From Verrucomicrobiota bacterium JB024 (GTDB lineage: Bacteria > Verrucomicrobiota > Verrucomicrobiia > Opitutales > Cerasicoccaceae), in NCBI GenBank assembly GCA_030673825.1, contig JAUTCS010000001.1, positions 1 through 54,978 of the forward strand: 54,978 nucleotides of DNA. Reading direction: 5' to 3'. The notes beneath the pieces were generated by a model. The model worked only from the letters and a program-made list of their open reading frames with translations. It was not told where the DNA came from and searched no databases. Positions 8,807 through 11,126 of the stretch are shown here, in pieces (position 1 is the stretch's first letter; each line of letters starts with the position of its first letter). The position numbers were made by a program, and so were the translations under genes.

Positions 8807-8840
8807 AAGAGACGGGGAGCCTTCCCCGTCTCTTTTGTTG
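8807..8840 (+). terminator. Rho-independent terminator of hisA
   Basis: A 12-bp perfect stem, AAGAGACGGGGA at 8807-8818 with TCCCCGTCTCTT at 8823-8834, a 4-nt loop, then a T-rich run. It sits 26 bp after the hisA stop. Confidence 0.92.
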
Positions 8841-9023: not shown

Positions 9024-10211
9024 TTATTTACTCTTAGCCTTACGCGCGGTCTTCTTCGCCACGCGCTTGACTGTTTTGCGGGCGTCTTTCTTTACGGCAC
9101 GCTTCACCGCAGCTTTCTTGGCGACACGTTTGACGACGGTTTTCTTCGCCATTTTCGTGGCGGCCTTGCGGGCAACTTTCTTCGCCGCTTTACGGGCGAC
9201 CTTTTTTGCGGCTGCCTTTTTCGTAGCCGTCTTCTTGGTCGCAACTTTACGCGCCGACTTTTTGGCGGTGCGCTTGCGGGCGGTTTTCTTTTTCGCGCCG
9301 TGGCGACCGGGGAAGGTCAGCTCGGCGATGCCGGACTTGTCCAGCTCTCCCAGCCCCTCGGCGGTCATGCGCTCGTATTGTTCCTTGGAAGCGGTGGCTA
9401 CCGGGAGCGTGAGCTTGCTCTTGCGGGCGAGTTTGAGAGCGATGCCCGAGTCCTTGGCGGCGTGTGCGGCGGAGAAGAAACAGGCATGGTCGCGCTTGAT
9501 CATGTCCTCGGCGTCGGTCTCGAGTACGCGGCTGTTGGCCCCGGTTTGCGAGAAAACCTGACGGAGCATCTCCAGGTCGAGCCCGAGTGCCTTGCCTAGT
9601 CCGAGCCCTTCGGCCAGCCCGGCGGTGTTGATGTTCATGACCATGTTGACGAGCGCCTTGACCTCGGCGGCCTTGCCCGCCTTGCCCACGTAGATAAGGT
9701 CCTTGCTCAAGTCCGCCAGCAGCGGTTGCACCTGGATGAAGACCTTCTCGTCCCCGCCGATCATGAGGTAGAGCGTGCCTTCGCGCGCCTGGGTGATGGA
9801 CGAGGCCATGCAGCCCTCCAGCGTGCGCGCGCGGCGGCGGCGGGCGAGCTTCTCAATCTCGCGGTGAAGGTCCGGCGAGACCGTCGCGCAGTTGATGAAG
9901 ATCGTACCGGTGGCCTTCTCCAGCAGGTTGTCGCGCTTGGCGGTGAAGATCTTCTTCATCGCGGCGTCGTTGGTGACGACGGTGATGACGACATCGGCGG
10001 CGGCGGTGACTTCGCTCAGCTTGGCCGGGGCGGCGCAGCCGAGTTCGCCGGCGAGGGCTTCTGCGGCGGGGCGGTTGACGTCGTACACGGCGCTGACGGC
10101 ATAGCCGCAGTCCACCAGGCGTCGCGCCATGTTGGCGCCCATGCGACCCACGCCGACGAGGCCGACGGTGGGTTTCGTATTACGGGATTTTTTCTTTGGC
10201 ATAATCAGCAA
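9024..10211 (-). CDS. beta-hydroxyacid dehydrogenase fused to histone H1-like tail
   Basis: A 395-residue protein in two parts. Residues 15-300 are a 3-hydroxyisobutyrate/6-phosphogluconate dehydrogenase-type enzyme: NAD(P) motif GLVGVGRMGANMA at 17-29 and catalytic lysine K185 in AAEVKALVNM. The substrate-binding loop is atypical (EGCMASS at 132-138 instead of the usual DAPVSGG), so the substrate is uncertain. Residues 305-395 are almost only K, A, R, T and V in KKxARK-like repeats, like histone H1 or the chlamydial HctB family, and would bind DNA or RNA. The start is TTG at 10211, seven bases after a good GAGGAGG; the ATG at 10202 lies 16 bases from it and is the alternative. A terminator follows. 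Confidence 0.88.
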   Translation of the reverse strand: MLIMPKKKSRNTKPTVGLVGVGRMGANMARRLVDCGYAVSAVYDVNRPAAEALAGELGCAAPAKLSEVTAAADVVITVVTNDAAMKKIFTAKRDNLLEKATGTIFINCATVSPDLHREIEKLARRRRARTLEGCMASSITQAREGTLYLMIGGDEKVFIQVQPLLADLSKDLIYVGKAGKAAEVKALVNMVMNINTAGLAEGLGLGKALGLDLEMLRQVFSQTGANSRVLETDAEDMIKRDHACFFSAAHAAKDSGIALKLARKSKLTLPVATASKEQYERMTAEGLGELDKSGIAELTFPGRHGAKKKTARKRTAKKSARKVATKKTATKKAAAKKVARKAAKKVARKAATKMAKKTVVKRVAKKAAVKRAVKKDARKTVKRVAKKTARKAKSK

Positions 10212-10286: not shown

Positions 10287-11126
10287 TCAGCGTTTGGCGG
10301 GGGCGAGGAAGGGGTTGTGAACGCGCTCCTCGGTCACCGTCGTCATCGGGCCGTGGCCGGGGCACAGGATCGTCTCCGGCGGCAGGGTGAGAATTTTTTC
10401 GCGGTTGTTGCGCAGGGCGTGTTGCCACGCATTGGCCGCACCGCCCATGGAACCGGCGAAGAGCGAGTCGCCGACGATGGCCACGGTGCGCTCCAGTCCT
10501 TGCACGACATAGGTCATACCGCCGGGTGAGTGGCCGGAGGTGTTCAGCGCGAGGATGCCGAGCGAGGCCAGGGTGAAGCTCGCGCCCTCCTCGATGGCCT
10601 TCGCACCATCGGTGGGCTCATGACAGGAAATGTACGTGGCCGGGTTGCCGGTTTCCTTTTGCAGGCGTTCGAGGTCGGCGATGTGATCGCCGTGGGCGTG
10701 GGTGAGCAGGATCAGCTGGAGCGTGAGACCGTGCTCCTTGAGAGCCTTCAGGATAGGAGTGGCGTCGGCCCCGGTGTCAAAGACCACGGCATCGCGGCTC
10801 TTCGGGTCGTACACGAGGTAGGCGTTGACGGTCATCTCCTCGTAGCCGGGCACGGGGTAGGGCGTGTTAAAGGCCAGTAGCCCGTTGAGCCGGACCTCCT
10901 CGGGCTGATAGCGGCCAAGGGCGAGATCGACCAGCGCATTGGCGTTCAGGTGCAGGGCGGGGGCGACAGCGCGCAAGGCGGCCTCGTCGGTGCCGCCGTT
11001 TTTGAGGGCATCAAGACTCTCCTTGCTCAAGCCGGTTTTTTCACTTAGCTGTTCGTCCGAGAGGCCGAGTCCGCTTTGTGCCTTGCCAATGACGTCTTCG
11101 GCTTTGTCTTCGAGATGTAAGCCCAT
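10287..11126 (-). CDS. XRE-like HTH fused to metallo-beta-lactamase-fold hydrolase
   Basis: A 279-residue protein from the ATG at 11126 (MGLHLEDKAED). Residues 10-70 look like an XRE/Cro-type helix-turn-helix (LSDEQLSEKTGLSKESLDALKNG). The rest is a metallo-beta-lactamase fold of the glyoxalase II type. It has the metal motif HAHGDH at 143-148, GHSPGG, the GDSLF aspartate and a terminal CPGHG histidine. Such hydrolases act on thioesters or similar small substrates. It may be an enzyme whose HTH-like part is a helical dimerisation domain, or a regulator that senses a metabolite. A longer reading to 11216 would overlap the divergent lipoprotein gene, whose start lies 29 bp away. Confidence 0.82.
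   Translation of the reverse strand: MGLHLEDKAEDVIGKAQSGLGLSDEQLSEKTGLSKESLDALKNGGTDEAALRAVAPALHLNANALVDLALGRYQPEEVRLNGLLAFNTPYPVPGYEEMTVNAYLVYDPKSRDAVVFDTGADATPILKALKEHGLTLQLILLTHAHGDHIADLERLQKETGNPATYISCHEPTDGAKAIEEGASFTLASLGILALNTSGHSPGGMTYVVQGLERTVAIVGDSLFAGSMGGAANAWQHALRNNREKILTLPPETILCPGHGPMTTVTEERVHNPFLAPAKR

Follow-up and report, generated by a model that had tools for sequence, protein, structure and literature searches.

A histone H1-like, lysine/alanine-rich tail on a beta-hydroxyacid dehydrogenase of Verrucomicrobiota bacterium JB024: a candidate polycation tether

Why should a metabolic dehydrogenase end in 90 residues that resemble the tail of a histone H1? Such a tail is unusual on a metabolic enzyme: earlier work, cited in a section of the survey PMC6821194, finds metabolic proteins to be depleted of low-complexity regions, and in the titles and abstract openings of the papers listed by our literature searches we found no description of a dehydrogenase fused to an H1-like tail. 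The window analysed here (the whole stretch of 54,978 nucleotides from Verrucomicrobiota bacterium JB024) encodes such a protein. Our preferred explanation, held tentatively and with somewhat short of even confidence, is that an NAD(H)-type dehydrogenase is tethered by its polycationic tail to a polyanion; most likely nucleoid DNA, possibly RNA or polyphosphate. If the tail does bind DNA or another polyanion, the tailed, tail-less and N-tailed relatives described below would amount to a natural experiment on charge-based enzyme placement.

The reading frame (9024-10211, minus strand) is open, giving 395 amino acids from a TTG at 10211 (an alternative start) or 392 from an ATG at 10202. This ATG is common to both of the other C-tailed members of the genus, with the TTG missing in one of them (G002), and residues are numbered here from the ATG, the Pfam coordinates having been shifted by 3. 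The features are:

9024..10202, minus strand: coding sequence of the tailed beta-hydroxyacid dehydrogenase, 392 aa from the ATG; stop codon at 9024-9026
9684..10169, minus strand: Rossmann domain NAD_binding_2 (PF03446), residues 12-173, Pfam 5.8e-28
9318..9677, minus strand: C-terminal helical domain NAD_binding_11 (PF14833), residues 176-295, Pfam 3.5e-21
9795..9818, minus strand: substrate loop E129-G-C-M-A-S-S-I136, located by alignment with L-serine 3-dehydrogenase
9657..9659, minus strand: catalytic-type Lys182, aligned with the lysine of 3w6u; Asn186 lies four residues further on
9027..9296, minus strand: Lys/Ala/Arg tail of 90 residues (residues 303-392), net charge +42

Beginning with the ‘core’ of the protein, we see that both domains score far above their Pfam cut-offs (98.4 bits against 21 for NAD_binding_2; 76.1 against 30 for NAD_binding_11), and that Lys182 and Asn186 supply the catalytic lysine and following asparagine expected of a beta-hydroxyacid dehydrogenase; the lysine having already been picked out as retained in a sequence-only reading of this locus. 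The best match of solved structure is the L-serine 3-dehydrogenase of Pyrobaculum (phmmer 1.2e-36; Foldseek 4.8e-24), followed, in sequence and fold searches, by HIBADH and tartronate semialdehyde reductase. With these enzymes (Pyrobaculum L-serine 3-dehydrogenase, tartronate semialdehyde reductase and 3-hydroxyisobutyrate dehydrogenase) the JB024 protein shares both Pfam domains, the Rossmann motif and the Lys/Asn pair, but it is only ~30% identical to them, has E-x-x-M-A-S-S where their loop reads D-x-P-x-(S/T)-G-G, and carries the tail. In the AlphaFold model the N-terminal domain is confidently predicted (blocks of 88-98), the C-terminal domain less so (60-90); most of the top Foldseek matches superpose poorly over their whole length (rmsd near 14), probably as a result of domain orientation, with YihU (6sm7) fitting at 2.7. 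Among the 20 NCBIfam families listed, no equivalog cut-off is reached (146.7 of 340.75 bits for the best, then 136.9 of 291.6 and 130.8 of 350). By its domains and lysine the core thus classes as a beta-hydroxyacid dehydrogenase, yet as none of the named equivalogs (TSR, HIBADH, threonate dehydrogenase and others).

An aspartate at the end of the second Rossmann strand favours NAD(H) rather than NADPH. In our protein Asp41, which follows the Rossmann strand, is invariant across all 102 family members compared, and points to a core that prefers NAD(H) over NADPH. To judge from these conserved residues the dehydrogenase is probably catalytically active; the core would then work as a beta-hydroxyacid dehydrogenase / semialdehyde reductase of NAD(H) type, with a substrate pocket peculiar to its family, and, by analogy with N-PAC, may do so as a tetramer. 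It is itself basic (net charge +8), the pI of the whole protein being 10.4.

The substrate loop calls for closer comment. The sequence EGCMASSI occupies the place that D-x-P-x-(S/T)-G-G has in L-serine 3-dehydrogenase and related enzymes, with Ala-Ser-Ser standing where (S/T)-G-G would be expected; a departure that the sequence-only reading had taken as abnormal. Within the family it is nothing of the kind. In a set of 102 members picked without use of the KALVNMV motif, every protein has both the lysine of that motif and the loop E-x-x-MASSI, and the loop recurs in 157 of 162 members of a wider set, one selected by KALVNMVM and hence no test of lysine conservation; the five sample members that lack an exact KALVNMVM all keep KALVN and MASSI, and none is long-tailed. 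Judged by this conservation, E-x-x-MASSI is the normal state of a separate subfamily, whose substrate it probably sets. The notion that the loop marks a dead enzyme was rejected because the loop is family-wide. The core is itself fairly widespread: a core-only query finds it in 75 of the 387 genomes of a phylum sample (the listed matches all having E ≤2.4e-105), those listed with a match all belonging to the same class or nearer, and a close orthologue (E 3.4e-96 or better) is present in 26 of 54 related genomes, JB024 itself included.

The same fold is joined to a chromatin-related part in eukaryotic GLYR1 (N-PAC/NP60), raising the prospect of a bacterial scaffold of that kind; a catalytically idle fold that senses dinucleotides and works on chromatin or transcription. 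In its favour are the shared fold (human N-PAC, 2uyy), here also attached to a basic part reminiscent of nucleic-acid binders, and a weak HTH_19 match, under the Pfam cut-off, at the N-terminus of the hydrolase encoded alongside. Saying this, GLYR1 carries a PWWP domain and AT-hook at its N-terminus and a methionine in place of the catalytic lysine, as set out in parts of PMC13144531, whereas the JB024 protein keeps its lysine, has a plain polycation tail and shows no Pfam match to PWWP up to E 0.1. Human N-PAC appears only at row 21 of the sequence matches (phmmer 1.8e-19) and rank 19 of those from Foldseek, the nearer solved relatives being metabolic enzymes, and the long tail is missing from most relatives. 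We therefore reject a particular relationship to GLYR1/NP60, which the earlier reading had raised, on the kept lysine, the lack of a PWWP match and the low sequence and fold ranks, and consider a GLYR1-like scaffold very improbable.

The tail begins after the residues F-P-G-R-H-G and is made up of 33 Lys, 24 Ala, 10 Arg, 10 Val, 9 Thr, 2 Ser, 1 Met and 1 Asp; it thus contains a single acidic residue and no proline. Taken with the two Pfam domains, its net charge of +42 bears out the fusion of a dehydrogenase fold with a 90-residue H1-like tail as first described from sequence. The KKxARK form is nearly private to this gene: six of the eight matches in the JB024 genome lie inside the dehydrogenase tail, with a reversed control pattern giving none. 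Likeness to histone H1 is one of composition only, the protein having no match up to E 0.1 to HC1/HC2 or another histone H1-like Pfam family. AF2 tends to model K/A-rich ends as helix. The single helix that AlphaFold predicts for residues 309-391 is accordingly weak evidence of structure, few rows of the alignment having a tail at all.

How might such a sequence have arisen? Tandem Repeats Finder reports no repeat array in the tail DNA, and peptides that recur within the tail are written in unlike codons: AAKKVARK occurs twice with seven of its eight codons different, and across the repeated 5-mers of the gene's tail the codons differ in 43 of 55 cases, as against a shuffled mean of 34.2. Among 11 tail segments from the family, repeated 5-mers differ in codon about as often as they do after synonymous-codon shuffling (three of the 11 having no repeated 5-mer); L060 shows the opposite, its repeat codons being more alike (7 of 15 differ against a mean of 10.8, a value as low being reached in 36 of 500 shuffles). 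Because repeated peptides use unlike codons and there is no tandem repeat in the DNA, the composition of the tail looks to have long been upheld at the level of protein; recent slippage of a DNA repeat was rejected as its origin on the same two grounds, whilst the repeated peptides may go back to an ancient duplication.

A search for the same fusion in other Verrucomicrobiota, the check that the sequence-only reading had proposed, recovers similar tails. Measured from PGRxG, the C-terminal tail runs to 90 residues here, 40 in congener G001 and 105 in congener G002, the latter two being encoded in one open frame with a core of 81-82% identity. The fourth congener (G003) instead has ~90 residues of like composition before its Rossmann motif; its C-terminal end leaves the contig after FPGRSPKK, so that only the N-terminal end is readable. 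By comparison, the orthologues in all six genomes of the sister genus (G004-G009) are tail-less, ending 5-7 residues from the TF residues, so the enzyme would seem to work without a tail, which counts against the tether; further out, but in the same order, G214 carries a basic tail on each end (41 residues after TF at the C-terminal end; about 90 at the N-terminal). The position of the tail therefore appears to be free and its charge kept: at the C-terminal end in three congeners, at the N-terminal end in the fourth and at both in G214. Such a swap within one genus fits better with a tether than with a structural part of the enzyme.

These comparisons also dispose of an artefact. Tail ends do vary between relatives, as a frameshift, misassembly or mis-called end might suggest, but the independent genomes G001 and G002 encode their C-tails in frame with the core, and tails in all of G001, G002 and G003 refute an explanation to which we assign a negligible probability. 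The sequence-only reading had coupled such an error with the existence of tail-less relatives: the first does not apply, because congeners carry tails too, and the second holds outside the genus, as the six sister-genus genomes demonstrate.

Across the wider family the C-terminal end ranges in length from 2 to 110 residues. C-tails of at least 12 residues are found in 25 of 157 members, and in 22 of these the part beyond the GR has a net charge of at least +4; over all 157, the ends beyond GR are net positive in 111, neutral in 31 and negative in 15. When a tail is defined by at least 8 Lys/Arg, 22 of 161 members possess one at the C-terminal end (32 of 193 loci having been removed as duplicates, and L007 and L029, of 163 unique members, set aside as cut by a contig end). 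The family tree (FastTree with local support; gains not separable from losses) requires 10 changes to account for this distribution, at least 7 of them on starred, well-supported branches, with other cut-offs giving 9 and 7. On this tree, similar tails come and go among the dehydrogenase relatives; they also cluster by kinship, because shuffled labels need more changes, 21 on average, than the 10 observed. An apparent correlation of N- and C-terminal tails, striking in a plain table (Fisher p 2e-7), finds no support on the tree (4 independent pairs, p 0.5).

The degree to which a long tail marks out the family depends on how its members are sampled. At least 8 Lys/Arg in the last 20 residues are seen in 17 of 97 family members as against 5 of 725 other ORFs at the same loci, a partly biased set, since the tailed protein served as query for the named genomes and basic ends contained two of the six seeds. 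In the core-only phylum sample (5 of 76 loci set aside: L131 because its contig ends within the gene, the remaining four because the motif filter did not catch them), the same measure picks out 4 of the 71 C-ends scored, as compared with 3 among 480 neighbouring ORFs (Fisher p 0.007); three of those four tailed members belong to JB024's own genus, however, and p rises to 0.12 when that genus is given a single count. A long tail is thus rare overall and strong in JB024's genus, with no more than a suggestion that it typifies the family. It counts against a tether that the unbiased excess is weaker than the first count and non-significant once the genus is collapsed.

Bacterial precedents for tails of this type come from several quarters. 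Passages of PMC9239181 describe DNA binding by the H1-like tails, or tail-derived peptides, of AlgP and PhaF from Pseudomonas; these are bacterial proteins with an H1-like Lys/Ala-rich C-terminal tail, as here, but theirs are KPAA repeats on granule-associated or helical, non-enzyme cores, whereas the JB024 tail is proline-free. In actinobacterial topoisomerase I (TopA), H1-like lysine repeats keep the enzyme on DNA, according to part of PMC7398561; unlike the dehydrogenase, a metabolic enzyme without a DNA substrate, TopA has DNA as its substrate. Chlamydial Hc1 and Hc2 are similar in composition but are stand-alone DNA binders, the size of Hc2 varying by Lys-rich pentamers (an excerpt of PMC2848022). 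By analogy with AlgP, PhaF and TopA, binding of the JB024 tail to the nucleoid or to RNA, as had been suggested from the sequence, is plausible. As a separate observation, the trypanosome mitoribosome assembly factor mt-SAF21 (PDB 6sga chain FM) has the same fold as the dehydrogenase (2.5e-14), again in a nucleic-acid setting.

Under the reading we prefer, the tail would act as a non-specific polycation tether, holding the enzyme on a polyanion to some presumed benefit. The chief rival to this is a functionless, tolerated low-complexity tail: these genomes may readily form Lys/Ala-coding ends, with selection merely keeping them soluble and harmless. The presence of the tail does differ strongly among close relatives; congeners have tails of 40, 90 or 105 residues; a single count for the genus leaves no significant excess over neighbouring ORFs; and many unrelated proteins, in the genus and in the family, bear K/A tails as well. 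Indeed, a DNA pattern for KKxAKK outnumbers its reversed control by 12 to 3 in the JB024 genome and 25 to 3 in G001, with an excess also in the six sister-genus genomes, so the dehydrogenase gene may simply share a genome-wide habit; a point against the tether. Not every such match is a tail, the motif being internal in phosphofructokinase-like proteins and one match containing a stop codon. Against a functionless tail, the unlike codons and lack of tandem repeats indicate a composition that has outlived synonymous saturation, only one residue in 90 is acidic, and each of the three C-tails that can be read in the genus is strongly basic, with the fourth species charged at its other end. On this balance we regard a functionless tail as unlikely, though of appreciable weight.

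Rather unlikely, too, is a reading in which the tail ties the enzyme not to DNA but to a different polyanion: polyphosphate granules, acidic membrane or ribosomes/RNA. Its model is AlgP, which sits with its KPAA tail on polyP granules, the tail being needed for granule spacing (as given in sections of PMC9239181), and the storage-carbon enzymes glycogen phosphorylase and PPDK are among the carriers of K/A tails; but no granule gene lies beside the dehydrogenase gene in the window, and the tails of AlgP and PhaF are proline-rich KPAA where that of JB024 is without proline. Those same carriers invite an extension of the tether that we consider doubtful: the tailed core-carbon enzymes (dehydrogenase, glycogen phosphorylase, PPDK and, in one species, a MenD-like enzyme) might be gathered on the nucleoid or some other polyanion, each by its own H1-like tail at either end, as a charge-based ‘address tag’ quickly gained and lost.

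Two features flank the gene:

10287..11126, minus strand: metallo-beta-lactamase-fold hydrolase, 279 aa; directly upstream partner gene
8807..8834, minus strand: terminator-like hairpin downstream of the gene; a consensus match only

The partner hydrolase is of the glyoxalase II kind (Lactamase_B 6.2e-18; GSH_gloB 2e-21, below its cut-off). It is paired with the dehydrogenase at 28 of 97 loci, directly adjacent and upstream in 26 and one ORF apart in two, and in 4 of 4 genomes of JB024's genus; it was not found beside the dehydrogenase at the loci of G004, G005 and G214. That the two form an aldehyde-handling pair is a fair guess. As for the hairpin, 8 terminator-like sites are found in the region, with 3.7 expected.

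Other proteins with Lys/Ala-rich ends recur in these genomes. Glycogen phosphorylase has a Lys/Ala-rich N-terminal tail in the genus and in sister-genus G006 (L252 120-2600 on contig C92 of G000; L276; L282), and PPDK (pyruvate phosphate dikinase) a basic one (L254 3-2063, also on G000 C92; L286 in G002); in another lineage, a Roseibacillus MAG (L065) encodes a basic-N-tailed PPDK-like protein two ORFs from its dehydrogenase. A MenD-like thiamine-diphosphate enzyme of G003 is an open frame ending in a Lys/Ala tail (L267 3-2018). Further carriers of the K/A motif comprise a topoisomerase, a SET-domain protein, a LacI regulator and an FtsQ-type protein, and in G006 those with K/A tails include a DksA-type protein, RimK and a short-chain dehydrogenase besides glycogen phosphorylase. 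In G004, G009 and G041 a Rho-type termination factor has a Lys/Ala tail at its N-terminus (L119, L122, L124; Pfam on the G041 copy only), and all four genomes of the genus contain a ribbon-helix-helix protein whose histone-like Lys/Ala tail is ~90 or more residues long (L250 1890-2516, L260, L123, L287). Lastly, a small protein with a Lys/Ala N-terminal tail and a conserved domain of ~80 residues (WGNNLYIRGEGGGLSW...) is found at L253 1648-2046 (G000 C92), L275, L285, L118 and L126; the domain of the L253 copy has no Pfam family, the tail of L275 matches HC2 below cut-off, and in G000, G001 and G002 the gene lies ~10 kb from the tailed PPDK.
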